In this document: piece by piece, positions 183-62,142 of the stretch
Numbering within the stretch: the first letter of the stretch is position 1
Layout: each line of letters starts with the position of its first letter
Assembly (NCBI GenBank): GCA_964035575.1
Contig: OZ037934.1
Location: forward strand, 186,001 to 250,000
Origin: Rhynchopus sp. YZ270_cl-10
Taxonomy: Eukaryota > Euglenozoa > Diplonemea > Diplonemida > Diplonemidae
Direction: 5' to 3'
Length of the DNA: 64,000 bases
Notes under the pieces: generated by a model
The model's database searches: none
What the model saw: the letters and a program-made list of their open reading frames with translations, nothing else
Told to the model about the DNA's origin: nothing
Translations under genes and position numbers: made by a program

Positions 183-2175
183 AGAAGCGCTCTGTGCTAT
201 GTTGTGTTTGGCGTGGTCGGAACCAGATGGGAAATGTACGAGCATGTGTAGGAAGCTTCTGATTCCCTGGTAGAAGTACAGGAGTAGTGCATTTGGGTTA
301 CCCGATCATACCAGTGTTTGTATCTTGTTGTTTTTGTTGTTTTTGTTTTGCTTTATGTCTGCTCGAAATAACTAACTGCTGGGACCAAAACGAGGCTGGT
401 GCTTAGGCTTACCTATATTGTTCGTGTGTTGTGAGCCAGAGGAGCATTTATCTTAACACCTTTTCTCTTTTTCTCTATTTCTTTCCCCCCGCAAAAGCCC
501 TCCCACAACCCCAGCCACTCCATCAACTGGCCTAGCACGGAGACTGCTTCCGCAGTCGTATTCCTCGAAAGGTAAAACAGAGTGGTGCAAAAAAAAAAAA
601 AAAAGAAAAAAGGGTGGAGTTCATCCTCGGGTGTCTGCACTAATACAACCAAGTTTTCAAAAAGAAAAAAAATATTTTGTGAACGGTTCAGTTAAAACAT
701 GGTCATCAAAAGCATAAAGCATAGAGAGGGAGAAGGAGAAGGAGAAGGAGAAGGAGAAGGGGTTCAAGTGGAGCACCGCCTGGCCTGTGACTTTGCGTGG
801 AAGATGTATGTACATTGTACACATTCGTCTTTCAATATGGACTCGTCCGGAAACCCCTCTGGTAAGATTCATCCTTTTGGGTATTTTTGGGTTTTTTTGA
901 TGATGCCCCCCACAAAAAGTGCATCTAGGTGATATTCTGATATGAAAATAGGTTTTTGGGGGGGTCTGAGGCTATATTTTCGCTTTTTTAATCAGATTTT
1001 CAGCCTTTTATTGTCGTTCTTCTGGATCTCTTCTCTCTTTCTCTTAATCCTGCCATGCCGCCTTGACAAGGTTTCATTGACCTCTGTCAAATCTACTGGA
1101 TCAATGCCAGGGACTTTTGCTTTGCGGGTCACCTTGGATGTGGAGACTCCATAGTAAATACAGGTTCCCTCCGTGTCAGAGTACACGCTAGCTGAAATGA
1201 CACGACCGTTGCTCGAGCAGCAGTACACAGACGAAAAGAGATTGATGGAAAGAAGGGTGCACTGATACGTATGAGTACGAGGGAATGAGATAACAAAGGC
1301 CTCTGTGTGGGGAAGCTCGCGCAGGGCACCGACAATGACCCCTACGGTAAGGATCTCCTGACAACAAGAATCATCAGAGAGAGGGTTCGAAACGACACCA
1401 AGTGTGCGTCGCACCCATTCTTACCGTGTTTCTCGACAAAAAAGTGAACTTCACTGCTGTCATTGCCACGTTTTTTTTTTCCAAAAAATACGTAAAAAAA
1501 TATAAGTAAAAAGGGGGAGAGGGGAAATAAACAAAAATAAATGCCCAAAATATGCCCTCTGGGGTGGTAGGTGTATGGTGGGTATCAAAAAATTGGGTTG
1601 TTTGGGTGTTTTGAGCAGAAAAACCTCAAAAAACCCCAAAAGGATGAATCTTACCAGGAGGGTTTCCGGACGGACCCATATATATTTTTGTGGTGAGCAA
1701 CGGGAGACGGTTCATGTTATAAACTTTGCTTTTGTTTTGTGTAGCACCCACGTCCCGCCCCTTTGCATGAGCTCGACTGAGATGCGTTTTTTTTAGTACT
1801 CTTTTGTTTTGGTTTGCTCTGCCTTTTTTTTCTGGTACACTTGTTCACGAGGGGGCTTGTAGTTCAAGCCCACTTTTCTTTCCAAGATAATATTTGTGAT
1901 TTTTTCCAAGCTTTCTTTCTCACATCAGTAGAATGACTAAGTACAGAGAGGCTTAGGTACACGAATGCATTAAAAAAAAATTACAAGACAATACGATATT
2001 CAGACTTAAGCACAGAAGCTTAGGTTCATCTCACTATACTTTCTCTCTCTTTCTCTCTCGTTTCTTTGATGTTCTGATGCACGAGAGGTATATCCGTCTT
2101 TCTAGTTTTCTCTCTTTTTAGAGTCATCTTAAAAAACTTTTCCCCCCTTTTTTTGTTTTTGCCCTGCACGCACAC
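183..2175. other. T-rich spacer with dispersed hairpin modules, no gene seen
   Basis: Bases about 215-325 match, in inverse orientation, 23648-23785 (shared pieces around GGTCGGAACC, GGAAGCTTCTGATT and AGAAGTACAGGAGTA). A GGAGAA microsatellite lies at 726-760. A dispersed module with a GTGTCTGCACTAATACAACC core lies at 612-660. Two copies of the CTAAGC/GCTTAG hairpin lie at 1931-1960 and 2001-2032, and a relative with a different stem at 2075-2107. An L-type module (GAGCTCGACTGAGATGCG) lies at 1767-1790. Open frames on both strands here show low-complexity translations and no family resemblance. Confidence 0.6.
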
Positions 2176-2181
2176 AGTGGA

Positions 2182-2945: not shown

Positions 2946-2951
2946 AGTGGA

Positions 2952-4042
2952 GTATTGTAATCAAGGGTCTAACGAAGAGTTTCCACCCCAAAGGGTCCGC
3001 TGTTTTCGGCTGTTTTCGGGGCGGACTCCCACCGTGTGTGTGGTCAGACCTCTCTCACTGTGTCTCTTTGCCTCTGCTTGCTGGTTTGGGATTTGTTGGC
3101 TCGAACAGAGCCAGTTGCTTTTTACATACGCTTTTACACACACATATTGGGCTATGTTCCGCCCTTAGGAACTACCCACACCCTTTCAACAGCAGAAATG
3201 GGCAAATATTCCGCACAGGAATTACCCATCGACGGTGGACTGGGTCAAGGCAAAGTTGTAATTGATAAAAGTGGAGGGTGTGTGTGTGTGTGTGCCTTGT
3301 TGCCCATTTCGTTTTGTTGCGCGCTTTTTTTTTATTTTTACTTTTGTGCGATAACTCAGTATCAAAAAAAAATGGGGGGAGGTGGGGGGAGAAATTGCCC
3401 AGGGTTGTAATGATGTGCAATAAGATGGGGTGACCCTCTTCAGCAACTTTATCTATTGTTTTTCTTTTTCAAGGTGTGACTAAGCAGAGAGGCTTGGGAT
3501 CATCGTACAAAAACCCTCCATTTTTTTTCTCATTTCTCCAATGCCTGTGTCCGCCGATGAATGGTGAGGCGTTTGCACTTTTCACTTTGTTATCATAACC
3601 ACAACAAACATTTTTAAAAAGCAAGGGTACATTTTAGCACCCTCTATACCGTCTTTTCGTCAGGAAAGAATGTATATGAAACAGCTTTTCACCTTCTTTC
3701 TATCCTCCTATTCCTGAGAATTATTTTTTTGAAGAAAAAAGAAGGTTTCAGACGTGCGTGTCTATGCTTCACAGAGTTCTTTTTTTGTTTGTTTTCTTTG
3801 TTCTTTCCACTTTTTAGTCACCTCTGATAGCAAATTGTGGTGCTGTGACAGAAGGGGGGAGGCTTCAGTTCATTCTTAAATTAAACTTTGTTTTTCTTTC
3901 TTTATTTTTTTTTTTGAAACAGAAGTCTTTTTCCACCCTCCAGCGTAGTGGGTACTTACTACAATGATCTCAGAAACAACCAAAGGGGTTTGTGTTCTTA
4001 CCCCAAATAGGGGTAGAGTAATTTGTTCAATTCCAGCAACAA
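2952..4042. other. Spacer: GT microsatellite, hairpin modules, no gene seen
   Basis: A (GT)n run lies near 3280-3295, a hairpin of the CTAAGC/GCTT family at 3471-3505, and a module containing GATGAATGGTGAGGCG with a GCAC..CAC(T)TT tail at 3553-3590. That module recurs at 58485-58520 and, diverged, at 33883-33920 and 57292-57335. Long T and T/C runs separate these pieces. Confidence 0.5.
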
Positions 4043-6327: not shown

Positions 6328-6462
6328 ATGGAGAGTGGAGTTGGAGGTGGAGGTGGAGGGTTTGCGGGTTTGTGCAGGTGGATAAAAAAGGTGAATAAAA
6401 AAGGGCCAACTGGGTGTGAGGAGATATAGTGTGCAAAAAACCCCCCCCCCCCCCCCCCCCAG

Positions 6463-7711: not shown

Positions 7712-10666
7712 CCCCCCCCCCCAGCCCAAGTTTTTTTTTTGGCAAATAGGAGGAAATGACTGACCGAGTCTGCCTCTGTTTTTTAAACGAAACCCCCCCT
7801 CCCTTTCCCCCGTTCTTGTTGTTACCACATCCTGAAAGTCAGGTTCTATTTTTAAAAGGTGACTTAAGCAACGAGAGGCTTAGGGTCGTCATCTTCAAAA
7901 CTTTTCTTTTTTTCTTTTCTCTCTTCAATTTGTGCGATTCGTCTTCAGTTGCCCCCAAGAGGGGGGCATCTGGGATCGAGATGACCCACGTGCCCGCATC
8001 CACGAGGTGACTTGTACAATTATCGACACACCCACCATCCTTCCCCACCTATTTCTTCCCCTACCTCCACCCGACCCCTCGCCTCCCTCGCCCCCCCCCC
8101 AATTTTTTAAAGGTGACTAAGCACGAGAGGCTTAGGTTCATCTTATAAACTTTTCTTTTTTTCTCCCCAACTTTCAGCTTTCAGCGCATCCTCGCATATT
8201 GTTAAGATCTGTTTTTTTTTTTTTTTTTTTTTTTTGATGATGTGTGCGCACGGAGAGGCACATCCACCTTACATATTTTTCTTTTCTTTTATGGGAACAT
8301 CTTTGTTGATCCCCATACCTATGCTATCAATTTATTGAATGCATGTGTTGAAATACTTTTCTTGTATCTCCTCACCCCCCCATGAGGTGCATACTTGATG
8401 CGTTGCTCGAAATGGCTAAACACGAAAGGCTTAGAGTACGCCTGCCTATCTTATTTTTTTCTCTTGAAACGATTGTGATCAAGGTGACTAATCAGGAGAG
8501 GCTTAGAGTCATCTTATACACCAATTTTTTTTTCTTTTTCCCCCTTCAACCGAGCGGCGTTTTAGCACGTTTCAACTACTCTTCTTTGACAAAGATGTTT
8601 AGAACGCTTTGTACTTTCTCCTCTTTGCTTAGACAGTAAACGAAACTTTCTTTTCTTTCTTTTTTGAGATCATTTTTGATCCCTCCTATGCTATCGATTT
8701 ATTGATTGCACGTGTTGACATACTTTCTTTTTTTATACCTACAAGCGTAGCTTAAAGGAGGAAATAGTTCCTCAGATACGGTCGCCAATCACCCCTCAAA
8801 CAGGGTAATTGTGCAATCAACGAAAAAACCTTTTCTCCTTTTACTTACCTATCAGAGTTACTATTTTTTTTTTTAGATATTATCCTCAAAATGGATACGT
8901 AGAATACAGCGTAGCGTGGTCTTGGGTTAACGAAGCATATGGCGAGAGTTGTGTGGGGTGTGCTGACTTCACGTCTACAACACCACTTATCAAAAATAAA
9001 CAGAGCACAAAGCACTTTCAAAACAAACCAACACCATTTTCAAAGTCCCCTTGTTGCAATATGTGCTGTGCATGAAGGCGCATTTATCTTTCAAGCATTT
9101 TACTATATTATAAACGTCCGTGGAGGTATTTCCGATGCGCGCCTTGTCTTTTTTTTTTTCAAGTTTTGAAAGTATCAGTGTGTGGCTCATTCCGACTTCC
9201 GGAACAAGGCCCCGATTGAAAAAAAAAAAAAAAAAATGTTGGTATTCATCTTTCAAGTCTTCAGGTTTCGCGGAAACACATTTTTTTTCTTCTTCTCGTA
9301 GATATTTCACTGTTCAACCGATACGGAAAACCCAACCAACCCATCAAACCTCATGATGCCCTTAATAAAGGGGGAAAATGGAGCAAGCAAAGTGGTCAAA
9401 CCAACGCAACCCACACCTGCATTTAAGGTACGGTAATAATCGTATTTTAGAAAAGAAAAGAAAAAAAGGGTGGAGATTGCACAACTGTGACAACACAACC
9501 GAGGCAACTACACTACTCCAACAATTTTTCAAATTTATGAAACAAAAAAAAAAAAGAAAACAGATAGTCACCCACCCCTCCCCAGAGTGACCATGCACAG
9601 TTGACAGTCATATCATAACAAGGTGACCCTGTGTCATCCTATCCTATTAGGCCCCCCCAAAAAAATAAAACTAAAAGAGGAGAGAAAGAAACCACCGAAA
9701 GAACCTACCTGCAGAAAGAAGACACATGAAGCGTCTCGTACTTTTTTTCTTCTTCTCCTCCCTCCCTAGGTGACTAAGCAACTGCAAGAGCTTAGTATCA
9801 TCGCCCCAACGAAAACTCAAAGAAAAAAAAAACCCCCCCTCAAAAGGTGACCATGTGACCCGGGTACCATGCGGGTCAAGTGCTTCAAGTATCAAGTACT
9901 GAGTTTTTTGGACGTTTGAGTGCTTTTCTATAGTACTTTGGACATCCATGATGCATGTATAGCATACACAAAAAAAAAAAAAAAAACATAATCATTTTAT
10001 TTAGCATATTACCCGGGGTATATGGTCACTGTGTGCAGCTTAACTACGACCCCTCTCTTATCGTACGTGTTTCTTCTTCTTCTTTTACCAACAAAAGCGT
10101 AGCTAAAAGGAGAAAATAGTTCCTCCGGTACGGTCGCCAATCATCCCACCTCCAACAGGGTAATTTGAGCAATCAACGAAAAATGCATAATATTTCCCCT
10201 TTTTACTTACATGTCAGAGTTACTATTTTTAAAAGTATTTTCAAAAAGAAAATTGTCAAAAAAAATGGCTACTGAACGAATGAATGAAAGAAAATCATAA
10301 AAGCATAACAAAAGCCCCAAACCCACTCCCCCACAAAAGGTGTCTAAGCAATGAGAGGCTTAGGATCATTCTATAAAACTATCCCCCTTTTTTTGACTGT
10401 GTACCTGCTTACAGTTTCCCTGTGGCAGCTTTCAATTTGCAACACTCTGGGGTTCGATAACCCGCAGATGTTTTTTTTTGTCAGTGCCCTGCGTCCCAGA
10501 GGCATTTTTGCACTATCAGCTTCACCTTTTTTTACTTGTGCTTTCATCCAGCTGGCATCGTACGTGTCAGCGGAAGGTACCTGCATCGATAACTTAACTT
10601 TTTTCTGTCATTCAATCGCATCATATCTCAACCACACCTGCATTCTAAAAAGGTGCATATTGCGAT
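7712..10666. other. Spacer dense in same-strand hairpin modules, no gene seen
   Basis: CTAAGC/GCTTAG-type hairpins lie at 7857-7895, 8111-8145, 8411-8442, 8481-8520, 9768-9803 and 10337-10375, all on +. A module with TATGCTATC(A/G)ATTTATTGA lies at 8290-8356 and 8665-8722. A module of about 150 bp (AGCGTAGCT.., hairpin GAGGAA-ATAG-TTCCTC, ACAGGGTAATT) lies at 8742-8880 and 10090-10235. A module with GCAACTACACTACTCCAACA lies at 9465-9530. A hairpin followed by GCACTATCA lies at 10437-10545. T-runs separate them. No credible coding region. Confidence 0.6.
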
Positions 10667-11324: not shown

Positions 11325-12050
11325 AGGCGCAATCACTCTTTTTGAAACCCTTTTAGGGACACAAAAAAAGCAAAAAAGCAAACATAGAACAAACACTCCC
11401 AAAAAAATGGAAAAATAAAAGAAATCAACCCAAACCTGTTCAGGAGTCGTCATCCTGAGATCTAGTGATCCCCGTTCGTTGACTGAAGAGTGGAAGCGGG
11501 AGGAAGACGTAACAGCGGTGTCCACGAAACGTGAACAGGGGAGGGCAGGTCACGTGGATTTACTCGTTCGCGGAGATACACGTTGTCATAGTTTTGAAAA
11601 AAAGCAAAAAAAGAAAAAGTAACAAAAAACTTCAGAAAAACCCATTAAAAACCCCTTTGGGCATACCCAGGTAAATGCCCCCAAAAAAGTTTTTTGATCG
11701 TACCCATGGGTATTTGGTAACGTGGTGGTTTTGTAATCCCTTTTTTTTTACCACAAAAAAGAGCACAAAGCAAAAATGACAAAAACTTTCATTCAACCCC
11801 CTTTTGTGCGGGCAAGTCAGTAGGTTTCCTTTTTCCATTCACTGTTGTAGGCCGCAGAGTATTTGTGCTTCATCCGAGGCTGGCATCGTACAGTGGGTCA
11901 GTCGGAGGTTGTGCCTGCATCAATAACTACCATTTTTCAAGGCGACTAAGCACGAGAGAATAACCAGTGTTCAAAAACATTAAGTAATCTAATCAGACTA
12001 AGCACGAGAGGCTTAGGATCATCTTAACAAACTTGTCTTTATTCGTCTTT
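11325..12050. other. Spacer with hairpin modules, no gene seen
   Basis: Holds a module with GGCTGGCATCGTACAG at about 11878-11935 (relatives near 4522, 10550, 13928 and 41546), a truncated CTAAGC hairpin at 11939-11959 and a complete one at 11994-12026. A-rich sequence lies before 11650. No coding region seen. Confidence 0.5.
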
Positions 12051-13310: not shown

Positions 13311-14341
13311 CTTCTTTTTTTTTTTTTTTTTTGTACCACCGCAAAGCAAAGCTTTCTCCATCTATTTGCTCTTTTTAAGGATTCCGCGAAGGAAAAAATC
13401 GTAGCTGCTATCCTGTGATAGTAGTCGAATAATCAAACAAAGTTTTTTTGTACCACCACCCGTGTACCACCACATGGCAACATTTTGGAGATGACTAAGG
13501 AAAGGCTTAGCATCGCATGCAATTCCCCCCCGGGTTGCAATCTTGCAGAAAAAATGGCGACAGGTATTTGAAAATACTTGTTGCCAGAATAGTTACGTTT
13601 TTGGTCATTTGTTCGTTTGTCGTCGTATCGCATTCCTTTAGAAGGGAAGGGAGGGGAGGAAAAAAAAACAGTACAAAAGTTTTTTTTTTTTTTTGTACTT
13701 TTTTTTTGGTGAAAACCGACGTCGTTAGGTTCTTATTTAGTTCTTCGTATTTCGTCTGCTTCGTTATTTTTATTTTTTTGCTTCTTCTTCTCAAGTCAAA
13801 TTAGCAGACTTGGGTGTTTACTGTATTCCTGGATCCAAGCACAAGGGCCCACGATCATCTTGCCGACCATTCTTACCTTTTTCTTTCTTTCTTTTTTCGT
13901 TTCCCCCCCTTTATTTTTTTGTGCTTTCATCCGGGGCTGGCATCGTACAGCGAGTCGGTCGGAGGTGTGTGCCTGCGTCAATAACTTCACCTTCTTTTCT
14001 GATGTCCGTATCCTTGGGGACATGTACATCGGCCTACCCCTCCATATTTGCATCCTGTGTTAGTCAATGACAATCTAGCCTTTCACCCGAGGCATGGTTT
14101 CTTTTGTGCAGAACCCACGCCCCCTTTTTCCCATTCTTTTTTTTCTTGTCGATTCAGTATTGCTTTCTATAACACTAGGGCTGTATTCCTTTCTTTAAAG
14201 GCGTTAGGCTTTACCCCCCACCCCTTCTTTTAAGGTACCACTAACATTATTTTTTTTCAAAAAGCAAAAAATGCGACCATCAAACTAAGCATGTGATGCT
14301 TACGATCATATTACAAAAAAAAAAAACACCCCCCCCGTTTT

Positions 14342-14570: not shown

Positions 14571-14587
14571 TTGCTATTTTTTCTTGC

Positions 14588-15469: not shown

Positions 15470-16156
15470 GGTGTTGTTGAGAGGCATATTCATATTACAG
15501 TTTTATTCCTTTCTTTCTTTGTTTTTGTGTATTTTTTCTGCTTTATTTTTTTTCAAATAAAACCCTTCTGATGTTTCTTGGATCATGGTTGAAGGAGTGG
15601 TCTCAAAATAGACACATCCACTAAAAAAGATTTTTCAACGATAATTGGTGTTACCGATCTGCTGTCGGGGACATGTCAAGGACCTGTCAATATGGGCCCT
15701 TTCGGGAACACCAATAATTTTTATTTTTTGTTTAGACATCCAGTATTTTTGTTAAGGTGACGAGAAAAAAAGCACTTAGCTTAGGTTCACCTTTGCCATA
15801 TTTCTCTCTCTTGTTTCTTTGGTCTTTATTTTTTTAAAAAATGACAGACTGAGTAGTTACTTGTATCACGCTCACAAATGCTTTCTGTTCTCCTGAACGG
15901 AAAGTATACGAAAGCGACAAAACGAAAAACATAACCTCTCTGCTTCTTCCCTTCTTTCTTTCTTTCTTATTTACTTACCATCAGATCCCGAAGTCTACTT
16001 ATTTTTTTTAAAAGATATGTGTACACATGAGGTGCACTCATCTTTAACTTTTCTTTTTATTGTTTTGCTTTGGCATCGTCGCTACTAACCCCGCAATCAG
16101 CTGAGGCTCAGCTTATTGCCCCTTCAACTTTTCTTTTTAGGTGGCCAACGATGAAG

Positions 16157-16856: not shown

Positions 16857-17185
16857 TTTCGTGTTCGTTTTTTCTCCACAACCTTCCTTCACCCCTGTAG
16901 CATACCATCGCAAATTTATGACGTAGCGCGTAGCGTACATAGTGCACGTAGCGTTCAAAGCGTAAACTGACGCAGCGTGAATAGCGTCCGTAGCGTACAT
17001 AACGGACGAAGCGCACATTTTTTGGACTTGTAGTGTTCAAAAAAAGGGGGAAACGCAAAAAAAGCAAAAAGTTTAAATCCCCCCCACTTCACCCCATGAC
17101 ACATGAATTACCCCGTGCCCAGGCACAAAGCAAAAACAACAACTTTCAGACAAATACCCCGTGCCCAGGACACCCCATTTCCCAC

Positions 17186-20100: not shown

Positions 20101-20649
20101 CGGCAAAGTCACCCCACCACAGCGCGGACAGATTCCGGAAATGCTAATTGCGGCATGTTTTGGGGCTGAAAGCCTACTTTTTTTCTAGGGAAAATTTTGT
20201 TTCCGGATGTCGGAATTTTTCGGAAAATTTCCAGAATTAGATGTATCTCTATTTCAAGTCACAACCCCCCTTTTTTTTTTGAAAGATGAGTGTGAATTTG
20301 ATGCTAGTTGTAAGAATGCAGACGGAGTGCTTCATACGTGTGTGTGGAGAGGGCACCTTCATTTTACATTTTTGTTTTTGTTTTTGAGCAGATGTGTGTC
20401 AAATTTATTGTTTGATTATCTTCACTACACACCCAATACTCCCCCCACACACAGTACGAGGAGGGGTACACGAACCCGTACTGCCCTCTCGCATGCGCAG
20501 CGAAGACCCAGGTGGACCACTGCGCAGACGTCACTTCCATCGAGACGTTCTTCAACACCCAGTTCCAGGCGCTCGCGAAGTGCGTGCGTGAAAGCTGCCC
20601 CCCTGCATTTTGGGGGTTTGCAATGGAAAAGGAGACGGGGTGTATTTGA
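17186..20649 (+). CDS. CSE1: CSE1 / exportin-2 (CAS), importin-alpha re-export receptor
   Basis: Nuclear transport HEAT-repeat protein that carries importin-alpha back to the cytoplasm with RanGTP. The start is the ATG at 17186, just after a C-rich AG; the protein begins MQNVHHLLQASLSNHEDVRDEA, as expected for an importin-beta N-terminal domain. The RWPGVLNDV stretch and PREYIAGDIEGSELGTRRHSA are diagnostic of CSE1. Likely exons: 17186-18481, 18530-19102, 19245-19317, 19476-20051 and 20455-20649, with introns GTACAA..CAG (48 nt), GTATGT..CAG, GTATGC..CAG and GTATCA..CAG. This gives about 903 residues against about 960 in relatives. The first intron is also readable in frame. An 8-G run near 20000 puts the end of exon 4 out of frame; seven Gs would give FFQSTVDDLEKLGEK and match the phase of the last exon, so an indel or sequencing error is likely. 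A repeat-rich intron precedes the last exon. Confidence 0.9.
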
Positions 20650-24456: not shown

Positions 24457-24465
24457 TATAAACTT

Positions 24466-36604: not shown

Positions 36605-36879
36605 ATACTGTTACGGTGAGGCGTCTTGCACCCTCTCAACTTCTCTTTTTGATGAGATGTGTCCCCCTTCAGCGAGGACACTTATTTATCTTTTCAATGG
36701 GTACATTTAGTGCACCCTGTTATACCTTCTATTCACTAGAATAGTTCGTATATGAAACAATCTTTTCAAGATTTGTTTTTCCCCCTCCTCTACTCTAAAA
36801 GACGGTGCCTGTGTGTGCACGAGAGGTGCAACACATTCATTCTACAATTTTTTTTTTTCCGTTTAGGTGACTAAACACA

Positions 36880-38923: not shown

Positions 38924-41900
38924 TATGAATGTATTAAAGGCGAGGTTTGTCGGGATGCCTGCGTCAATACCTGTTCCCTTTTTCTTCTTTTTCTTCTTCT
39001 TTTTTTGCGTCCTTTGGTGAAGCGCTGTGCGACTTCTTCATCTTTCAGCATTGTGTGTTTATTTAAGGTGACTAAGCAACGAGAGGTTTAGAATCGTCTT
39101 ATAAACTCTTCGTTATTTTACGATCTGTATGCGCGTAAGGCATATCCATCTTTTCATCTTTTCAACTTTATTTTTTGTTTGTTGGGCTTAGTTTGGACCA
39201 GCGAGGAGCAAGCCCCCCTCTCAAAAAAAGATTTTTTTATTTCAAAAAATTGCAGTGAAATTTGCACAGAAAAAATTCTGCACAATGATAATTGCCCTTT
39301 TGACGGGGTTTGATCAGTGCTGCACAAAATCTTGTGCAAAAAAAAAAAAAAAAAAAAAAAACCCTTATTCCGTTTCCCCCCCGTCAACACATAGTTCAAA
39401 AGCAGCAAAAAAAGTGAGTGACTTTAGGGACGGAGTTTGCACAGATGGCAACCACACTGTGTCAAGAATTCTTCCAAAAAAAAAGAGACATTTTTTACAT
39501 TCATGGTGTCGCTGGATGGGGAGGGGTGCACAAAGTGCACAAGTACGCAAGAAGTGCGTATCACCTACCCTTCAGCCCACCCCCAATTTCATTTATTTAT
39601 TTTACATCTTCTTTTCGAAAACCCCCATCAAAGGTTCAAATCTACAAACCTCTGTTTTTTCTCCCTGTTCTTCGATTCTTACCGGAGGGTATCAACGAAG
39701 AAAAAGAAAGTGGAGAGTCGCACAAACTGTGGCAACTACACTACTCCAACAATTTAACAAAAAAAAAAAAAAAAAACGAAACGAAAAAACAAACGCGGAT
39801 GGGTCAATAATGATATCTCCTATCCAATGCTCCCCGTTCTTTAAAAAACGAAACGAAGAAGAGCACAAAAGCAAAAACAGCAAACAAAAAACTTCATAAA
39901 AAAATCCTCTTTCAAAACCCTTTTATACGTATATTTTTTTGAACCTATGGGGGCTACATGGTATCCCCGTAGACCCCCCAAAAAAAACCCCCTCTACCAT
40001 TTTCACCATTTTTTGCCAAGTTTTTAGGACCTCAAAAAAAATCCTGATTTTTCTTTCTTTCTTATACCTACAAAAGCGTAGCTTTAAAGGAAACAAATAG
40101 TTCCCCCGATACGGTCGCCAAATCACCCTCTCCTCCGACAGGGTAATTGAGCAACGAAAACAAACAAACCTTTTTTTTCCCTTTTACGCATATGAGAGTT
40201 GCTATTAGTGATGCTTTCAGAAATCGGTCAACGACTTGGCAGCGACGTGTCTACATCAAGGGGGGGGTTGTTTATAAAGTCCCTGTGTCAGTGACCTGTC
40301 AATATCGACCCCTCCTGGGGCACCAATTACTATTCTTTTATTCTTGGGGGGACAATGTACCCCCTACACGACAGGACCCAGTGACAAGTGACAAATGAAA
40401 ATGACAAGTGAAATAGGTGACAAGTGATATACCTACAGCCCAGTGGAAAGTCACTTGTCATGATAAGTGACTTATTTGTCATATTTATGACAAGTGAAAT
40501 GCACTTGTCACTTGCCACTGGGTCCGTCGTGTAGACCCCTCCTACCTAGAGCCCTAGCAGTGCTCGTGCACAACTCTATAGGGGCGCTCGTTCAAGAGCT
40601 TACCCCAAGCAGCATTCATCTAGCGTTACTACAACTGACATGACGTTTCAACGTCACGTCCGTTTGTTATACCGCCCTGATGTGGGAATCATCTTTTAAA
40701 AAAAATATTGCATGCGAGTCACGAATATCACCCCCTTGCCCCCATTGAAAGATTTTAGCCTGGATTTCACATCGAAAGAAAATGGCAAATATTTTTTCAT
40801 TTTTTTTCCAATATTTTTTTTTCTGTTTTTCCCCCTTTTTTTGTGACTGAAGGAATAGAGGGCACGCTTTGTGCAGCTTTTTTAGAAGGTTTCCTTTTAT
40901 TTGTGCAACACTCCGAGGGTTCGCTAACCCGTGGAGTGTCAGTGCCTGTGTCCCAGAGTCGTTTTGCACTATCAACTTCACTTTATTTATTTATTTTTCT
41001 GTCTATAGACGTCTGCGTGCCCCTCACATTTTTGCAAAAAAACATACTGCATAAAAAGAAAGATGGGATCATTTTTTGATTCCTCCTCCTATGCTATCAA
41101 TTTATTGAATGCATATGTTGACATACCCAATAGGCGTATGCGTGCCCCGAGAGGCCCGTTCGTCTTTTTTTAAAAACAATCGGAGTTCGGAGTTCAGATG
41201 GTGTCAACACGCACGTCATTTTTTTTTTTGCCCCCTTTTTTTATTTTTATTTTTATTGATTTGTTCAGTTGCGTTGTATTTTGTTTTTTTTTTTATTTTA
41301 TTCTCCAGTTTCCCTTTGAAATGTCTTCTCTTTCCTTTTATGTGGCCAAGTACGAAAGGCTTAGGTTCATCTTCACAAAAAAACTCCCTTTTTTTTTGAT
41401 GTGTATTCATGTCAAGCCTCTTCACTCTTTCAACTTTTCTTTTTTAGGTGATTCAGCTTGGCTGAAGCTTCACCCCCTTTTTTTTATATTCAAAACCCTT
41501 TTTTCTGTTCTCCTGAAGCGAAAGTACATTTTTTGTGCTTTCATACAGGGAGGGGCTGGCATCTTACAGTGTGGGTCGGAGGTGTGTGTACCTGCAGCAC
41601 CAACTCTTTTTTTGCGCAACTCTGCGGAAGAATAAATAATCGTACTAGAGACTGCACAGAAAGGTTGAATCCGTGGATGTTCCAAGCCCATATTCTATTC
41701 AAAACAAAGGCCTCCCTTTTTTATCAGATTTATACCTCCAAAAATGGATACAGGATCGATTCTCTCAGATCACGTTGTTGGTTTACTGCCTGGGAAGGAG
41801 TAATTCGGACTGTCGGACTCTTCTTAATTCTTCGGAATTATCCCAACCCTGCAAGACCACTTAATAGGACTGCATGGTTGGGGGAGGGGTGCACCCCCTG

Positions 41901-48605: not shown

Positions 48606-48610
48606 TTTTT

Positions 48611-49010: not shown

Positions 49011-52000
49011 GAAGGATTATATTTTGTGTAACCAAATATCAGCCTTTTTGTTTTCGGCTAGCCAACTCTGCAACCGATTCAGAAATCATGTGATATGATT
49101 ACAATGTTATGCAAAACGTGACCATGACATTTAAAAATTTCTCACTGTTTTGTATATCCTACGGTTTGCCTAGGTGGTAGAGACTAGTCAACCCCCCTCC
49201 CCTCTTCCTCAAGGAAAGAAAGAAAGCCTCCCCCCTCCCATTTCGCGGTTGGGCGTCTCCCGCCCCGTCTTCTTCGCTTTGTTCCTCCGGTGTCTGCTGC
49301 GCGTGTTCTGGTTTGCACGTGTGCTGCCTGATGGGTGTCTTCCTTATCAGACGGTTCCTAGCAGTTTGTCTGACTGCAGGTGCGGTTCTTGAGTGCCTTG
49401 ACATGGGTGCTACGACTTCTTCTGGCTGTGACGGGTTTCTGGGTGTTGTGTGTTTCTTTGCTGTGGAGGTGCCTACACACGTGTGGCTTGTGTTTATCTT
49501 GTTAACTTCTGCAGACTGATTCTATGTGCCCTGTGTTGTGTGTGTCCAGTCTCCTCCTCTTTTATGTCGTCTTGCTTGCCTCATCGTCTCCGTACTTGTT
49601 GTGTCTGAGGTGTCTGTGGTATGTATCTCTCATCTGGTAAATAGATATGGGTACTCGAGCTCCTTCCTTTCATGAGTGCTTAATCGAGTACCTACTGTTC
49701 CCTGCCGGTGGGCTCTTCCTTGCGCGTCTGTCTGCCTGCTTAGTTCTCGAGTACCTACTCTTAGTTACGTGGTGTGTCTGTGTGTGTCCTGCCGCCTGTC
49801 AGCGTTGGTATAAATAAGTCACGCCGCCTATCCATAGGTGTAGCGTTGGTATAACTAAGTCACGCCGCCTATCCATAGGTGTAGCGTTGGTATAAATAAG
49901 TCACGCCGCCTATCCATAGGTGTAGCGTTGGTATAACTAAGTCACGCCGCCTATCCATAGGTGTAGCGTTGGTATAAATAAGTCACGCCGCCTATCCATA
50001 GGTGTAGCGTTGGTATAAATAAGTCACGCCGCCTATCCATAGGTGTAGCGTTGGTATAAATAAGTCACGCCGCCTATCCATAGGTGTAACGTTGAAGATC
50101 TGTGTGTTTCTCGAGGGCCGGTCCTTGACTATGCGCCGATGCGTTCTGTACTCTGTCCGTGTGTCGGTCCTGCCCGTGGTACCTCTATCATCTCTGTGTG
50201 TGTCGTATACCCCTTTCCTACCGTGGTGGTAAGGTCTGCCTGTCCCCCTTGCGGTTTTTGGTCGTCTGGGCGTGTGGTCATGAGTATGTCTTCAACCTTC
50301 AGCCCTCTTCTTCCCTTGCCTGTCTTGTTCGCCGAGTTCTTTCCTGTCTCTGTTGTATCTGTCGGGTCTGGGGTGTCTATGTGGTGTGCGATACCTTGGC
50401 TGGAACAGCGCATCTTCGTACCCACGCACGTGGAGGATCCTGCTGCGCTACCGCCCGCGACCCGGCTACGGAATACGACGTCTGCCCCTGCTGTACCCGG
50501 CACGCATGCGTCTGCTACCCCGAGTGCGCCTTCCCCAAGTATGACTCCATCTGCGCTGTGCACCCGTGCGACGAGCACCATTGCGATGCTGTAGGTGCTG
50601 TAGTGCCGCTGGGACCTTTCTGCGTCAGCCAAGAGTGATGTATGGAGGCATCGACCGGTACGAGGCCAGGCACCTTATGCAGTGGATGTACGGACACGAC
50701 GCTCAGTTGAGGCTATGTGCCGGTGGTGTGTCTGTGTTCGGGATTATGGCCGCTTGGACTTCCGCAGTTTCCGGGCTGACGAGGCTGTGGTCGCTTGTGA
50801 GCGAGCCGGTGAGGGCACTGCATGAACCTGATGCTGGACAGGATCCTTCTGTGCCGTGTATCTTCTACGGGCCGTACTGCTAGTCTGCGAAGCAGGTGGT
50901 GGTTTCAACGTCGCCTCTCAGTTTGGCGATGGTAGTGATAGCCGTACGATGTTCCCTGTGTGTGGCACGACGCGGACCGCTACGTGAGTTCGTGTGTAAT
51001 AGGATCTGCTCGATTTGTGATGGTGTCTTCAATCTATTCCTCTTCCCCCTATGCCTCGTCTTGTTCGCCTCGTTCTCTCCGGTCCCCTTGGCGTCTGTCG
51101 GGTCTGAGGAGTCTTAGTGATGTGTGATCTCTTGTGTCGTAGGTGGCTAGGCATGTGAGGCTTGCGTCCATCTTATGATCTTTAATGACACACTGCCGCT
51201 AGTTCTTTGCATTTCACGTTTCATTGATCTGAGCCATGCAGTGTTTTCCGAATGGTTTGTGAGTCGCGTAGTGTCTTCGGATTCTTCCTCGCAGTTCGTC
51301 CGACTGTCTGTTGGTGTGTGACCCTGTCCGAACCAAGAGAGTCTTGGTTATTTGAGAATTTAACTTCCCCAGAGTTGTTTTTTCCATCTGTGTGAGTTGA
51401 ACCCTCGCCGAGCCAAGAGTGTCTGGGTGGCTTGAGATTCAGTAGATTTTGTCTCTATTCGCCGAGCTGCCTGTGTGTGCTATGAACTCTGTCCAAGTCT
51501 GGGTTCTCTTGGTTCTTGTGACAGGATGGTGTTCGCCTTTCCGGTATGTCTTGCGACGCTATCGGCGTGGCTGAGTGTCGCGCCTGGACGCCAGAGAGAT
51601 CCTGCTTGTGTATGGTGGCAGCACGGGCATTGCGGCGATGTGGTAGGAGCCCCCGTGTTTTTGCCGCTTAGTTGAGGCTCTGTGCCGATGTCGTGTCTGT
51701 GTGTGGGATTGCGAGGCGCCGCTTAGTCTTCCGTACTGTCCGGCCTGACAACGGCGATGAGGCTGTCGTCGCTTGTGGGCGGGCCGGTGGAGGGCACTTC
51801 ATGAACCTGATGCTGGGCAGGGTTCCTTCTATGCCGATCGCCTTCTGCGTGACGTACAGCAAGTCTGCTAGCAGAGGATTCGAGGTTCAACGATGCTTCT
51901 CATTGTGCGCGACGGCGGTGGTAGCCTCCTGTGAGTGTGGTGTTTTATGCGTATGGCACGATACAGACCTGCGTGTGTCCGTGTGCGACACGCTGGATAC

Positions 52001-54040: not shown

Positions 54041-54891
54041 GTCTCGTTTTTAGCTTTCCTTTACACCATTTTGTTTTCACCCCATTCCTTCCCCTCCCCT
54101 TTGTTTACGTTAGATGTGTGTGCACTGTGCGAGAGGCACATTCATCTTTCAAAATTTCCTTTGTTGCCTTTTTTATTTTCGTCGAGCGAAAAAACCTCCG
54201 ACGTCACCTCGTCATATTTTTTTTTTTTTACAAATATATTTGACTAAAGGGGGGTGGGGGATAAAACAGTTATCCCCCGTTTTTTCTCTCTTTTTCCCCC
54301 CATTTTATTTTTTTTTTCATCCCCCACTACACTTTACTTAGAAACACAACAGTTAAGGCGACTAAGCAGCGAGAGGCTTAGGTTGCATCTCAAAAATTTT
54401 ATTTATTTCTTTTGTCTCGTTTATTTTTCTTTACGCACACTATTTTGTGAGCGTGAAGTGTCACGTCGTTCACTCACCCAACCGTGCTCTGCAACACCAC
54501 CACCCAACAGGTGAGAGTGTGTGGAAGTGTCAACGCATCAAACAACTACAAGAAGGGGGGTGAGGGAACGAAGTGACACTGTTCTCGGTTCAGTGTAGCA
54601 TCGGCCTCTGGTGTCTACGCTAGAAAAACGAAGTTTTCAAAAAAAAAAAAAAGTATCTCTTTTATTGATCGTGTACTCATGTCTTATATTTTCCTCAATT
54701 CACTTCTACTTTCTGCCAAATGCTGTGTTTCGACCACCACCACCAACACAAGGCAGTATCACACAACACCACACTGCAAAGGAGCCATGAGTCAAGCGAC
54801 ATCACGGCTGTGTCTTTTTTTCTAGTAATCTTCACCACTTCCCCTCCCTCCAAAAACTCAAAAGGTAATTTACACAACAAAACACCCCACA
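54041..54891. other. Spacer with hairpin modules, no gene seen
   Basis: Hairpin with GTGTGTGCAC stem at 54111-54150 and CTAAGC hairpin at 54354-54391. A diverged GGTGTCTACGCTAGAAAAACG module lies at 54600-54640. T-rich tracts and the pyrimidine-rich approach to the next gene make up the rest. Confidence 0.5.
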
Positions 54892-55193: not shown

Positions 55194-55267
55194 TTCGCGC
55201 TGGTTCCTGTCTCGCTTTCTTAAGATGTGTGCACGTGAGACACACCTTAATAAAAGCACTTTCTCTC

Positions 55268-55303
55268 AAGGTGACTAAGCACGGGAGGCTTAGGTTCATC
55301 TTA
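55268..55303 (+). repeat. Hairpin module, CTAAGC/GCTTAG stem, near-consensus copy
   Basis: GGTGACTAAGC, loop ACGGGAG, GCTTAGGTTCATCTT. Preceded at 55217-55250 by a relative with stem GTGTGCAC/GAGACACAC. One of about 25 same-strand copies; its loop differs from the consensus ACGAGAG by one base. Confidence 0.7.
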
Positions 55304-55955: not shown

Positions 55956-57944
55956 ATGGCTGATATGAACCTCGCAAACCTTGCCAACATGGCGAGCATG
56001 CTTGCGTCCATGCCTAATATGATGAATATGGCACAACAGCAGCAGCAGCAGCCACCACCACCACAACAACAACAACAACAACAACACCAGCCACCGCCAC
56101 CACCACCACCTCAAGAATTCTCGAACAAAGGCGGCAAAGGGGGGAAGCATGGGGGGGGCTACCGTGGGGGCGACCGACAGCGTGACTACTCCCGAGGCGG
56201 GAAGGGCCACCAGGATACAAAGAACACAATCTGCCGGCACTTCCTACGAGGTGCATGCATGTACGCGAAGGAATGCAAATTCAGCCACGACCCCGAACAG
56301 ATCGCTGCAGCCCTTGAGAATGGCGAGCTTGAGAACGACCATGAACTGCGCCCGAAAGATATTTCACGACACGACGAGACTTGCATCCTTCTTTGGCAGA
56401 TCCCTCCACACTGGCAGGCACATGATATCATAGAACACTTCGAACAGTACGGCACGGTACTCGACGCGCGCGTCATCAATGGACAAGACAAGGGCTCGGT
56501 CACCTTCCAATCCCCTGCAGTGGCGCAAGAGGTGGCAGCGAACATCCGCAACCTCCCCCCCGTGGAGGGGTGCCAAATGAGTGCGCGACTCCGATGTGAC
56601 GTTATTGCCCAACGCAGACGACGTGACGAAACACAACGTGACCCACGGGACAGAGACCCCGAAGTGACAGACCTCAAAGGTGTCATTGAGATGCTCGGAA
56701 AAGATGAAAAAGGGAGCGAGCTCATCTCCAAGCTGTTAGACAAGGTGGATGGCGAGGAATCGCACGACACCCTACACATTCTTGCGAAGGTCGACACACA
56801 TGAAGACCTGGAGATCTCAGTACAGCACGACCTGTGGCATGTGTCCGCATCGAATGCGGATCTGATCAATGGGTATTTGGCGCAAGGGAAGGCTGTGATA
56901 CTTATCTTCTCGGTGCGAGGCTCGGATTCGTTCTCAGGGTACGCGAATGTGAAGGGGGACACGGTGCTGCGGTCAGAGCGAGGGGCCGAGGTCAAGACCC
57001 TCCCGCTCTCCTGGGAGCGTGTGCTTGACGTGGAGTGGGGCTCTGTCGCGCCCCTCAAGTTTGCAGAGTGCCCGCCCTCCGCAGCTGCTGCAGGTGACGG
57101 CGACAAACTACCCCACAGTGACGGAGAGAAGATCATCACCCTCATCACCCAGCTCGCACAGACCGCTCAGGTGGTGAGCAAGTATGTCGTTTTTTGTTTT
57201 AGTTTTTTTTGGTGCAGTCATTTGTGCCAAAGGTACATTGTTCACGAGAGGGCTTTTGTATTTTTCAAGGCAAACTTTTTATTGCCTACGTCCGCCGGAT
57301 GTACAGTGAGGCGTTTTGCACTTTCAACTTTATTTAGTTCCGCTGTGCGTATTATATTCTGTTATTCCTACGAAGCTTGCTTTAATGGAGAAATAGTATG
57401 TACCGGCATCCCTCAGGAGGATTTATGCAATCAACGAAACAACTTTACATGAAATGAAGGAGGAAAGAAACAGAGCATTTTTGAACACACTTTTTGCGGT
57501 TCTGGGGACGAACCGCGCTGCAGAGCCACGCCTCACCAAACAGGTCGAGGTGTGTGCGTTTCACCGCTACCTCTCCCATGGGTGATGGTAATGACAACAC
57601 CACAGGAGGAGTGATGGTGATTGTGTAAAATTCACCATTTCATCATACCGAAGTGAAGGAAAAGTTACCAGAAATTAAGTCCCGCCTAACAAAAGAATCG
57701 CCATCGACTTCCGATCTTCCGGCAGGTTTTATTGTGTGATGAGTGTTAAGTTTCTATTTTCCGTTGTGCGTATTCTCCTCTCTTGCCACTCAACCACCTT
57801 CCCTTTCCCCTCCACAGGACATACGACGAATACCTACGAGAGTACCACGCAGCCACAGACATGCAGCACAACACCAACACCGTGCAACCCCACCTCCAGA
57901 ACCCTCTCGCTGCCTCTGTTGGGCCGGTCACCTTTGCTGATTAA
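55956..57944 (+). CDS. CCCH zinc finger - RRM - YTH domain protein, probable m6A reader
   Basis: About 450 residues. The start is the ATG at 55956, after TTCTGCAG near 55904. Exon 1 is 55956-57181; a 636-nt intron with a GTATGT donor and CCACAG acceptor follows, and exon 2 is 57818-57944 (TYDEYLREYHAATDMQH... to TAA). The phases fit. Met/Gln/Pro-rich start with Q and P runs; Gly/Arg-rich stretch; one CCCH finger (C-x7-C-x5-C-x3-H in CRHFLRGACMYAKECKFSH, about 93-111); RRM-like domain (about 142-213, ILLWQIPPHW...GSVTFQS). Then a YTH domain (about 284-380): HDLWHVSASNADLINGYLAQ, VILIFSVRGSDSFSGYANV and VLDVEWGSVAPLKF align with YTHDC1, including the cage tryptophan W294. YTH domains bind N6-methyladenosine in RNA. 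The CCCH plus YTH pairing recalls CPSF30-L of plants and apicomplexans, so a role in mRNA 3'-end processing is possible but inferred. The gene-proximal repeat lies upstream and hairpin modules lie in the intron. Confidence 0.85.
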
Positions 57945-59246: not shown

Positions 59247-59404
59247 TGCCGCGCCGAAGATGGTTGATTCACACTTTTCCCCACTTCTATTTCACAAACT
59301 ACTTCACACCACAGCAAAAGGGCTATTGTTCTGCGAAAGACTTACCCTCACACCCACCACACCACACCACAGCATATATTTTCCACCACACAAAAAAAAA
59401 AAAT

Positions 59405-60742
59405 ATGCCGCAAAAGGTTCTGTTGCTTGGAGCTGGGCTTGTTGTGAAGCCTATTGTTACGTATTTGAGCAAGCATGGATTTGAGGTGACTGTCGGCAGC
59501 AGGGGGCTTGACAAGGCACAGGCACTGGTGAAGGGCACCCCTGCGACTGCGATCAAGCTTGACATTGAGGACGACGCAGACCTGCCGCTGCTGCTGGAGC
59601 GCACGAAGGAGTCGGACCTGGTCATCTCGATGCTTCCTTGGCTGCTCCACGCGAAGGCAGCGAAGATGGCGGTCGAGAACGGCAAGCACTTCATGACGAC
59701 TTCCTACCTCTCTGACGCTATGCGCGAGCTCGACGCCCTTGCAAAGGAGAAGGGCGTTGTTATGGTCAACGAATGCGGTGTCGACCCCGGTACCGACCAC
59801 ATGTCTGCCTCGAAGGTCATGGACAAATGCAAAGCCGACGGAGGTAAGATCATCAGCTTCACCTCCTTCTGCGGCGGCCTCCCTGCCCTCGAGAACAACA
59901 ACAACCCCTTCGGCTACAAATTTTCCTGGGCACCCCGTGGTGTCCTGCTTGCCGCGAAGAACGCCGCAAAGTTCTACAAGGACGGTGCTGAGGTGGAGGT
60001 CCCTTCCGCCCAGCTTTGGGAGACCGCCGAACGCCACGACGTCAAGGGGTTCGACACCCCCTTCCAGGGCGTCCCCAACCGCAACTCCTGCCAATACAAG
60101 GAGATCTACAACCTGCCCGACATTAAGACCCTTCTGCGTGGAACCTTCCGTATTGCGGACACCTGGGCGGATCTCATGGTTGGCCTGACCCGCCTTGACA
60201 TGCTCGACCTTGAGGAGAAGGAACTGACCGGGACCTACAAGGAGCTCATCCTGAAGCAGGCCGGAGCGTCCCCAGGGGATGACATCAAGAAGGCGGTGGC
60301 CGCGAAGATCTCTTACGCAGAGGACCATCATGTGGTCAAGGCGTTCGAATGGCTGGGTCTCTTCAGTGACCAGAAGCTTGAGTCGAAGACGCACCTGGAC
60401 GCTGTCTGCCACCTGATGTTGAACAAGAAGGAGATGGAGTACGCCGAGGGGGAGAAGGATATGATTGTCATGAAGCACACCTACGAGGTGGAATACCCGG
60501 ACCGCACGGAGTACCTCAGCACCCAGCTGGTCGACTACGGTCTTGACGACGGAACCACCTCCATGTCCAGAACCGTTGGTCTCCCTGTCGCCATCGCAGC
60601 CCGCATGGTCCTCCAGAAGACCATCACGCTCACCGGAATCCAAATCCCGATCGTCCCTGAGCTGTACAACCCCATCCTCGACGAGCTGGCCAAGGAAAAC
60701 ATCGTTTTCCATGACTACACCGACAAGGTTGTGAAGAAGTGA
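59405..60742 (+). CDS. LYS9: Saccharopine dehydrogenase (glutamate-forming), LYS9 type
   Basis: 445 residues, the same length as fungal Lys9. It interconverts saccharopine with 2-aminoadipate-6-semialdehyde plus glutamate using NAD(P). The start is the ATG at 59405, directly after an A run and a CA-rich leader; the frame is open upstream to 59246 but that part is not protein-like. The N-terminal Rossmann motif VLLLGAGLVVKPIVTYLSK is intact. Family-typical stretches: NECGVDPGTDHM, SFCGGLPALENNNNPFGYKF, SWAPRGVL and RTVGLPVAIAARMVL. No fused lysine-ketoglutarate reductase domain is present, so it is the separate-enzyme form and either the alpha-aminoadipate lysine-biosynthesis route or lysine breakdown is possible. 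Codon use is strongly GC3-biased, suggesting high expression; that bias also creates a long open antisense frame. Confidence 0.95.
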   Translation: MPQKVLLLGAGLVVKPIVTYLSKHGFEVTVGSRGLDKAQALVKGTPATAIKLDIEDDADLPLLLERTKESDLVISMLPWLLHAKAAKMAVENGKHFMTTSYLSDAMRELDALAKEKGVVMVNECGVDPGTDHMSASKVMDKCKADGGKIISFTSFCGGLPALENNNNPFGYKFSWAPRGVLLAAKNAAKFYKDGAEVEVPSAQLWETAERHDVKGFDTPFQGVPNRNSCQYKEIYNLPDIKTLLRGTFRIADTWADLMVGLTRLDMLDLEEKELTGTYKELILKQAGASPGDDIKKAVAAKISYAEDHHVVKAFEWLGLFSDQKLESKTHLDAVCHLMLNKKEMEYAEGEKDMIVMKHTYEVEYPDRTEYLSTQLVDYGLDDGTTSMSRTVGLPVAIAARMVLQKTITLTGIQIPIVPELYNPILDELAKENIVFHDYTDKVVKK

Positions 60743-62142
60743 ATTTGAGATCCATATTTTTTTTTTTTCAAAACGTAGACGGATTGGATGCTTCAATGCA
60801 AAAAGAAGTTTTTAAAAAAATGGATCCGAGATATTACGGGTTTTTGTGGAGATTTTGTACGAAATTTTGTGGCAACATTTGTGTGTCTCAGCTTCGGCAG
60901 GGGGGATTGCCTGAAGCAAAAAAAAGGAAAAAAAGGTCAAAGTGGGGCATCTTCGGCCCAAAGAAATATTATTCTAATTTTATTGCCTCCTCCCGCCCCG
61001 TTCTCACGAAGAAAAAAGGGGAGGGAGAGGGGGTAATAAAACGAAAGAAAAAAAAAATATAGGGGGAAAAAACAGCGTGCAAAGTGTGGAAATTTGACAC
61101 CGTGTTGTGTTATGTTATTGTTTGATTTATTTTTATTTATTTTTGGTTTGTTCGAGGGGGGGGGAACAAGGAGGGCCTGCTAAGCAGGTGTATAGTGGCT
61201 TCAGCTGCGCCTTTTTCCTGCTCATTACACCTTTTGTGTTACCACCCTCAGTATGCTTTCTGTTTGCCGCTGAAGTATATGAAATCCCATTTGAGGGTTT
61301 CTATCTTGGGGGGAGAGGAGGGGGGGTTTTGTGCTTGTGGTTCTGCGAGTCATACAACGACTCAAAAAGTGGATCAGTCCGCTACCATTTGCCATCCTTC
61401 CCCTTTTTCGCGTTTTTTTGTTTATTTTTTTTGTGGAGAGTCTCCGTTGCTCCTGCAAGTCCTCCTTGATTTTATTCTATTTTTTTTTTTTTTTGTTTTG
61501 TTTGTTTGGTTTTTGGGAATGTTGACCACACCGTCACCCCCACCACCACAGAAAACTCAACTAAAAAAACAAAATCTGTTGTTTCAATTTTTGTCGTATT
61601 TTCTCTTGTCTTTTTCCCTTCAAAACTTTGAAATCTGGAACAGGTTATCTTGTGTATTTTTTTTCGAGGTGACTAAGCACGAGAGGCTTAGGTTCATCTT
61701 CCATATTTTTCCCCTCTTTTTGTTGCTCTCCTTTTTCCCCCGGGGGGGAAAAAACTCTTTTTTGTGTTGTGGGGGATTTCTGTTGCCTTTTCATGATAAA
61801 GGTGTGGTTTTCCAAAAAAAACGAAGAACGAATTTAAAAAAAACACGATCTCAAGAAATCTATTCACCAAAAAAACAAAACAAAAAAAGCAACAACAACC
61901 GAATACGGGGGTGGGGTGATAAGACAAAAACGCGAGCATCCTGATCGCGTAAAATAAAGTAAAAGAGAACTTCTGCCCCAATTTTGGGGGCGAAGCTCTC
62001 CCTACCCTCCCGCAAAAGCAAAACTTAAAACCAAAAGAAAAACGAGAAACCCTACTTACGTTTCACCCCTTCTAAAGTTTTTAGCACCCCCTCCCTCTCC
62101 CTCTCTCCCTCACTCACACCCTCTCGCAGTTTTACTTTAAAC
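60743..62142. other. Spacer with one consensus hairpin, no gene seen
   Basis: T- and A-rich sequence. A consensus CTAAGC hairpin lies at 61667-61700 (GGTGACTAAGC, loop ACGAGAG, GCTTAGGTTCATCTT). A CT-rich run ending TCTCGCAG lies just before the next start codon. Translations in 61107-61944 are low-complexity. Confidence 0.5.

Follow-up and report, generated by a model that had tools for sequence, protein, structure and literature searches.

The DNA considered here (the window) comprises 64,000 nucleotides (nt) of contig OZ037934.1 from the nuclear genome of the diplonemid Rhynchopus sp. YZ270_cl-10, and it contains many short hairpins on the plus strand, which are present in both spacers and introns. 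The hairpins belong to four families (A to D), and the present analysis concerns their relationship to long interspersed elements (LINEs) and their orientation along the chromosomes, by using the assembly of this organism (152.4 Mb, 126 contigs). The saccharopine dehydrogenase encoded in the window has its best matches among diplonemid transcripts, at 81% to one and 74% to another with the label 'Rhum', read as Rhynchopus humris, and Diplonema papillatum also appears among the matches. It has been reported that the genes of Diplonema papillatum form one-directional clusters and that essentially all of its mRNAs are trans-spliced (PMC10161547, main text). The word "hairpin" does not occur in that main text, the supplement being outside this scope, and neither hairpins like these nor orientation-locked LINEs are named in the titles and abstract openings of the literature surveyed.

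All 38 places listed in an initial annotation of the window were inspected in the sequence, and covariance models were built from 18 of the 25 copies of its main unit (family A; match threshold E <0.05) and from all 13 copies of its second set (family B). Twenty-two of the 25 A copies were found by the model, all on the plus strand, and the three others (11939, 15754 and 36865) are half or broken copies that it missed; the B model found 13 of the 13 copies from which it had been built. Thus, the dispersed hairpin family described initially is real, and it can be extended by two more families, C and D, whose loops and tails are of the same kind. The loop had been described as a constant ACGAGAG, which does not hold for many of the listed copies; 14 exact matches to this motif lie on the plus strand of the window and 3 on the minus strand, some of them outside hairpins. 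The copies in the window are given below; A and B hairpins were placed by the covariance model of their family unless another basis is named, and D copies were compared with the 3' untranslated region (UTR) of the second LINE described in the next section.

1931..1965, +, family A hairpin (A model match, 28.6 bits)
2002..2033, +, family A hairpin
2077..2102, +, family B hairpin
3474..3507, +, family A hairpin
7857..7893, +, family A hairpin
8111..8145, +, family A hairpin, consensus copy with T-rich tracts on both sides (A model, 54.4 bits; flanks read)
8239..8270, +, family B hairpin
8410..8443, +, family A hairpin, degenerate (A model, E 0.0048)
8482..8516, +, family A hairpin, 8 of 10 upstream nt LINE-like (A model and upstream comparison)
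9768..9805, +, family A hairpin
10338..10373, +, family A hairpin
10479..10525, +, family D 3' end copy (89% over 47 nt)
11992..12026, +, family A hairpin
13489..13517, +, family A, weak (A model, E 0.045)
14279..14313, +, family A hairpin
16014..16045, +, family B hairpin, compensated stem (by eye)
20330..20375, +, B-like hairpin in Cse1 intron, about 20052-20455 (read by eye; exons by Pfam)
21361..21401, +, family D 3' end copy (85% over 41 nt)
21494..21525, +, family B hairpin
24361..24416, +, family D 3' end copy with an A hairpin in the T tract at its end (91% over 56 nt)
24424..24458, +, family A hairpin
31093..31124, +, family A hairpin
32020..32054, +, family B hairpin
34224..34259, +, family B hairpin
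34903..34938, +, family A hairpin
35141..35173, +, family A hairpin, degenerate (A model, E 0.0028)
35199..35233, +, family B hairpin
35430..35462, +, family B hairpin
36810..36843, +, family B hairpin
39066..39101, +, family A hairpin
39122..39153, +, family B hairpin, compensated stem (by eye)
40928..40981, +, family D 3' end copy (93% over 54 nt)
41137..41167, +, family B hairpin
41340..41374, +, family A hairpin
51141..51175, +, family A hairpin
54113..54150, +, family B hairpin
54356..54392, +, family A hairpin
55224..55251, +, family B hairpin, weak (B model, E 0.017)
55269..55303, +, family A hairpin
57220..57262, +, family C element in CCCH/YTH gene intron, about 57182-57819 (sequence reading)
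61667..61701, +, family A hairpin, consensus copy

Family A has the consensus AAGGTGACTAAGC-ACGAGAG-GCTTAGG(A/G/T)TCATCTT, followed by ATAAACTTTTC; its RNA folds at -12.6 kcal/mol (-7.6 for the opposite strand), and the hairpin is framed by T-rich tracts, one of about 6 to 8 nt upstream and a longer one after the tail. Family B has the same loop and a similar tail with a different inner stem (TGTGTGC/GCACAT), and the family D hairpin reads AGTGC..GCGTC-ccaga-GGCG..GCACT, then ATCAACTTCAC. With up to 3 mismatches, a 20-mer of the A core was found 7 times in the window versus 0 in 100 shuffles, and an A 34-mer had 1684 + 1674 matches genome-wide versus 0 + 0 in a reversed control; family C, with up to 2 mismatches, occurs at 993 + 1108 places (control 0 + 0). 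Twenty stretches of 10 kb from another contig, C1, were scanned with the A and B models, and 32 A, B or C matches were found in these 200 kb (17 stretches with a clear strand were read for all three families, and the 3 others had no A or B match, C being unread there). A rough extrapolation from the density on this one contig leads to approximately 24,000 recognisable copies genome-wide. No match was obtained in the window with Rfam at the gathering score, or in the viral contigs compared.

Hairpin tails of two LINE families

The 100 bp upstream of one A hairpin (L028) recur at no fewer than 40 places on many contigs, 37 of them identical and 3 at 99% (40 of 476 candidates were scored). When ten copies of this element, LINE-A, were compared, the shared sequence ended at ATAAACTTTTC, with different flanks beyond it, and the 5' truncation points lay at -7, -84, -90, -170, -604, -611, -931 and -1205 relative to the query start and, in two copies, beyond -1500. 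The open reading frame (ORF) has a CCHC motif (by eye) and stops 10 nt before the hairpin, inside the shared 100 bp. Further upstream in one copy (P0121), matches above cut-off to both a reverse transcriptase (RT; RVT_1, 2e-24) and an apurinic/apyrimidinic-type endonuclease (Exo_endo_phos, 1.4e-13) were found in one ORF, together with an upstream frame of 545 amino acids (aa) without a Pfam match. Target duplications were also detected: the longest common flank string in 8 truncated copies was 7.62 nt, versus 5.97 +/- 0.41 nt after flanks had been exchanged between copies (a value as high was reached in 0 of 2000 swaps), and the shared strings are T-rich, such as TTTATTGT and TTTATTTTT. The carrier of family A therefore has RT and endonuclease in one ORF, a constant 3' end with variable 5' truncation, and target-site duplication, as expected of a LINE. 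Because the ORF stops just before the hairpin and the common end lies at ATAAACTTTTC, the family A hairpin together with ATAAACTTTTC is the entire 3' UTR of this LINE family. The RT of LINE-A most resembles that of other diplonemid elements: among the 109 matches listed, elements of D. papillatum mostly match at 43-50% and named non-diplonemids (bee, ticks) at 23-28%, many matches being without an organism name.

A second LINE (LINE-D, P0124) is 54% identical to LINE-A over the RT stretch, has the same set of Pfam domains in the precomputed annotation, and exists in at least 35 copies (35 of 716 candidates were scored). Hairpin D was found at all four of the 3' ends fetched and is the 3' UTR of this second LINE, so that the elements of families A and D both terminate in a 3' stem-loop, as in the tails of stringent-type LINEs. 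The initial annotation had named descent from a transposon end as an outcome contrary to its own proposal, and this is what was observed for family A and its sister family D. Families B and C are taken as probable tails of sister LINEs from their common loop, tail and orientation. At one LINE-D end (L045), the T-rich tract downstream contains a B and then an A hairpin; close pairs of this kind, including that at 24361-24458 of the window, may occur because earlier insertions offer T tracts to later ones. Overall, the hairpin is very probably the 3'-terminal stem-loop of a group of diplonemid LINEs, through which the RNA would be recognised.

As a separate observation, repeat-rich frames with FAGLSSVTSL-like units, leucine-rich-repeat-like by eye, lie upstream of two LINE copies (L001 and L036).

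Hairpin-only copies, their stems and their position

Most of the sampled A copies are hairpin-only (solo) copies in T-rich flanks. By comparing 55 A matches from the window, the C1 sample and the loci of Ras genes with the 10 nt upstream of the hairpin in the LINE, one match was found to agree at 10 positions (L028), two at 8, and 52 at 7 or fewer. At their 3' ends, well-kept solo copies match the end of the LINE exactly, ATAAACTTTTC included, and near-identical A copies with unrelated flanks occur beside every grade of decay. On their upstream sides, the solo copies have no common sequence beyond the T-rich stretch (no search for RNA polymerase III promoter boxes was made). Their 5' ends pile up near the hairpin base, unlike the scattered truncations of the LINE, which suggests that the RNA is trimmed to the hairpin or that a separate hairpin-only RNA exists.

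It had been proposed that the stems change and stay paired, as a sign of selection on RNA structure. This was confirmed between families, whose stems differ and are nevertheless paired, and within family B by an arm-swap test, in which the own arms gave -8.69 kcal/mol versus -7.78 +/- 0.21 for swapped arms (87 distinct copies, 0 of 300 swaps as good). For the B copies with an altered right arm, the values were -8.40 versus -7.24 +/- 0.28 kcal/mol (n=56, 0 of 500); since the B copies are related, these arm-swap figures and those of the shuffles are not clean probabilities. A second test, the gap-free pair count, was borderline and suggestive only (114 of 156 cells paired versus 108.1 +/- 3.2, with 110 of 2000 shuffles as high), and one pair is G-C in 12 and A-T in 6 of 26 gap-free copies. 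Palindrome-guided repair could also mend the B arms. The proposal fails within family A, in which hardly any compensation was seen and both-sided changes occurred at 0 of 6 pairs in 18 copies; this fits recognition by the protein of the element and subsequent neutral decay. An asymmetry towards G-U pairs was considered as a sign of RNA-level selection in family A, where 37 of 64 transitions at paired positions keep the pair and 27 break it; A-to-G also leads among the few changes at two loop places, so that no conclusion was drawn, and the three lists counted overlap. In family C, 7 copies gave weak folds of unequal stability (-5.5 to -14.8 kcal/mol), and a common stem is not established.

With regard to genes, none of 84 sampled hairpin matches lies in predicted coding sequence, which accounts for 31% of the bases. 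The Cse1 gene of the window (importin-alpha re-exporter, 17096-20646) has several introns, and among those read only the longest (404 nt) contains a hairpin, which is B-like; a gene for a CCCH zinc finger and YTH protein (55956-57181 and 57820-57944), an architecture known from plant CPSF30-L, has a C copy in its 638-nt intron. Both intron calls rest on reading frame and splice-site sequence. No A or B match was found within 200 nt before the ATG of nine Ras genes, and in five of the nine a match lies 200 to 650 nt downstream of the stop codon, whereas spacers of 441, 642 and 955 bp at these loci have no A or B match. The roles suggested initially, namely a signal for processing or stability, a terminator or a splicing mark, are thus not supported, given the variable positions at nine Ras and two intron-bearing genes and three short spacers without A or B; a polycistronic RNA-processing signal, a terminator and a trans-splice acceptor were rejected because the positions are not fixed, and the copies do not look like signals at cistron borders. 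The hairpin was also considered as part of a 3' splice site with branch point and polypyrimidine tract. Such a tract follows it, and AG is depleted for about 50 nt there, which a T-rich insertion target would explain equally well.

Orientation along chromosome arms

A total of 358 A and B places on 60 contigs (298 neighbour pairs) were entered and each was scored against its neighbours; all 270 scorable copies are in sense orientation, and 88 were not scorable. Among these pairs, 38 changes from minus to plus and 2 from plus to minus were found. When family C and genes were included (456 pairs, 86 contigs), the numbers were 48 and 2, both plus-to-minus cases occurring as blocks in C1 and C2. 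One strand change, from minus to plus, was seen in 44 of these 86 contigs and none in 40, and C1 and C2 have three each; chromosomes look like one divergent pair of transcription arms, and C1 and C2 like two such units joined. In the C1 sample, all stretches as far as 2.16 Mb have their A and B matches on the minus strand, and those from 2.45 Mb onwards have them on the plus strand; two weak matches of opposite strand overlap stronger ones and represent the palindrome read backwards. Predicted coding sequence follows the hairpin strand in this sample except in L017 (plus) and in L011 and L024 (mixed), with two stretches without a call. As an observation in its own right, L017 (C1:1250001-1260000) has a plus-strand open frame through nearly all of its 10 kb within the minus arm, and plus-strand hairpins at C1 1.21-1.31 Mb mark a local plus block.

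Of the Ras or cyclophilin genes, 27 have a listed hairpin within 200 kb, and in all 27 cases the nearest one is on the strand of the gene (84 of 99 genes were entered). Family C was sense at 70 of 70 scorable places (100 listed). LINE-A itself, scored on distinct copies only and with references within 5 kb excluded, had 31 sense and 0 antisense copies (53 distinct, 22 not scorable), LINE-D had 20 scorable sense and 0 antisense (35 copies), and D end copies at E <1e-5 were sense in 12 of 12 cases. Hence the single orientation matching the genes, noted at first for the window, extends over whole chromosome arms. The other RT groups taken together include antisense copies, with 40 sense and 22 antisense (62 scorable of 121 entered); sense/antisense numbers were 3/8 for group a, 0/3 for b, 6/6 for d, 3/2 for m, 4/1 for g and 6/2 for h, and group e had none scorable. 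Group h (RVT_1) is of a different kind, its RT frames reaching about 3390 aa and often lying near contig ends, and 6 sense and 2 antisense copies among 9. T tracts on the sense strand exceed A tracts by 1.1 to 1.4 to 1, so target sequence would give at best about 59% sense copies and cannot explain the orientation.

Proposed mechanism, rival explanations and known systems

The protein of these LINEs would bind the conserved loop and a paired stem, which may account for stems that are paired and yet different among families. Where the sense strand has a T tract, it would then nick the A-rich template strand opposite and prime reverse transcription at that site. Solo copies could result if copying of the RNA were limited to its hairpin end, either from RNA trimmed to the hairpin base or from a hairpin-only RNA acting as a minimal short interspersed element (SINE), and orientation would be set at insertion, the target strand being chosen according to which way transcription or the replication fork proceeds, and the two may run together here. 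Strand choice at insertion is the simplest and likeliest reading of the orientation, although unproven. The effects of the two directions are not separable here, since transcription and replication may well both start from the one divergent switch of each chromosome, a situation known from Leishmania. On balance, a LINE group whose target strand is locked to transcription or fork over entire arms, and whose protein needs only a 45-nt tail hairpin, so that hairpin-only copies mark the transcribed strand, is somewhat favoured.

The main rival on orientation, which appears rather improbable, is that insertion occurs both ways and antisense copies are removed by selection as harmful to polycistronic RNA. 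The sense orientation of the scored copies and the seemingly one-directional transcription across whole arms would agree with it, but other RT groups persist antisense in the scored arms (22 of 62), the near-identical, and so young, LINE-A copies are already sense in 31 of 31 cases, and a 45-nt insert in kilobases of spacer would hardly be so harmful. That the solo copies are host cis-acting RNA elements for processing, stability or splicing in long pre-mRNAs, captured by LINEs as 3' ends, is quite unlikely: sense orientation, avoidance of predicted coding sequence (0 of 84), co-varying B arms, intronic copies and the polypyrimidine tract with AG depletion speak for such elements, whereas they have no fixed position at the Ras genes and are lacking as A or B from the short spacers, their near-identical copies in unrelated flanks and in all decay grades look like a mobile family, and the LINE itself inserts into the polypyrimidine tract. 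Least credible by far is a palindromic DNA transposon, similar to miniature inverted-repeat transposable elements or repetitive extragenic palindromes, with a mechanism unrelated to the LINE. A short imperfect palindrome in thousands of copies outside coding sequence would suit it, but well-kept solo copies end as the LINE does, down to ATAAACTTTTC, a DNA transposon would be expected in both orientations, and the unit is asymmetric with a one-sided tail.

Several results weigh against an origin of the hairpins by orientation-locked LINE insertion. Exact A copies are less often solo, and 2 of the first 8 listed (L001 and L008) have LINE sequence upstream, which implies that attached copies are commoner among young ones. 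Target duplications were not shown for solo copies: 467 of 1000 swaps were as good for A (n=61), 125 of 2000 for 15 clean A copies, and 23 of 1000 for B (n=21). In family A, most stem changes affect one side only, and of the 107 changes counted at paired positions 70 abolish pairing (the lists overlap and the counts are not independent). Families B and C were not found joined to a LINE, and no entered A or B place lies within 5 kb of the entered RT rows (C was compared with these by eye only). One antisense match to a D-like string and one weak antisense D match (E 0.034) were observed. A looser B pattern with 40 places gave 31 sense and 4 antisense among 35 scorable; three of the four are one palindrome listed on both strands, C13:1524100 stands alone, and the reversed control of that search gave 4 chance matches. 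Moreover, RT groups c, i, j, k and l are together 18 sense and 0 antisense (2 to 6 scorable each) and group g has 1 antisense of 5; the absence of antisense copies in the former five groups indicates that the orientation lock may extend beyond the group of LINE-A and LINE-D.

The LINEs and hairpins described here can be compared with several known systems. Eel UnaL2 and its SINEs form a LINE/SINE pair with a common 3' end, and here, too, short non-autonomous copies carry the LINE 3' end and outnumber the LINE in the sample. The body of a SINE contains a promoter for RNA polymerase III, whereas the solo copies are essentially tail only, of about 45 nt. R2 is a target-specific LINE that has one orientation relative to the host transcription unit owing to its unique asymmetric target, whereas the T-rich DNA targeted here occurs on either strand, in a ratio of 1.1 to 1.4 to 1. 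LINE insertion is usually ascribed to short DNA motifs and chromatin; since one LINE group obeys strand over whole arms and other RT groups include antisense copies, it is directly testable whether target-primed reverse transcription is coupled to transcription or to replication. The trypanosomatid L1Tc/ingi elements and their SIDERs are likewise euglenozoan non-long-terminal-repeat retrotransposons with short derivatives in polycistronic genomes, but their hallmark is 77-79 nt at the 5' end, while the common part here is a 3' hairpin and orientation follows transcription. In stringent-type LINEs (zebrafish ZfL2-1 and ZfL2-2, eel UnaL2), the protein encoded by the element recognises a stem-loop at the 3' terminus; in the diplonemid families, the loop is retained and the stem varies from one family to another. 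For zebrafish ZfL2-1, one study reports that a swapped stem is tolerated at about half the rate and that a swapped loop lowers retrotransposition dramatically (PMC4176376). Compared with these LINEs, the diplonemid elements differ in T-tract targets, orientation lock and mostly hairpin-only copies, with recognition of the hairpin here being probable by analogy. The different tails provide a naturally occurring set of variants for studying stem and loop recognition by a LINE protein, the solo copies suggest how little RNA it may need, and the hairpins provide a cheap map of transcription direction. Paradiplonema papillatum is described as a genetically manipulable diplonemid (PMC12621601).

Apart from the hairpins, other repeats were found in the window. 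A tandem array at 49801-50094 consists of 7.2 copies of a 41-bp unit that are 98% alike, and a repeated CTAAGATCTTAG palindrome occupies 36989-37904. Repeats of 21-23 bp like TTTAGGGCAAGTCTGAACTT occur in both orientations at 24498-24686 and 27004-27196, about 2.3 kb apart, and are possibly the ends of a DNA transposon.

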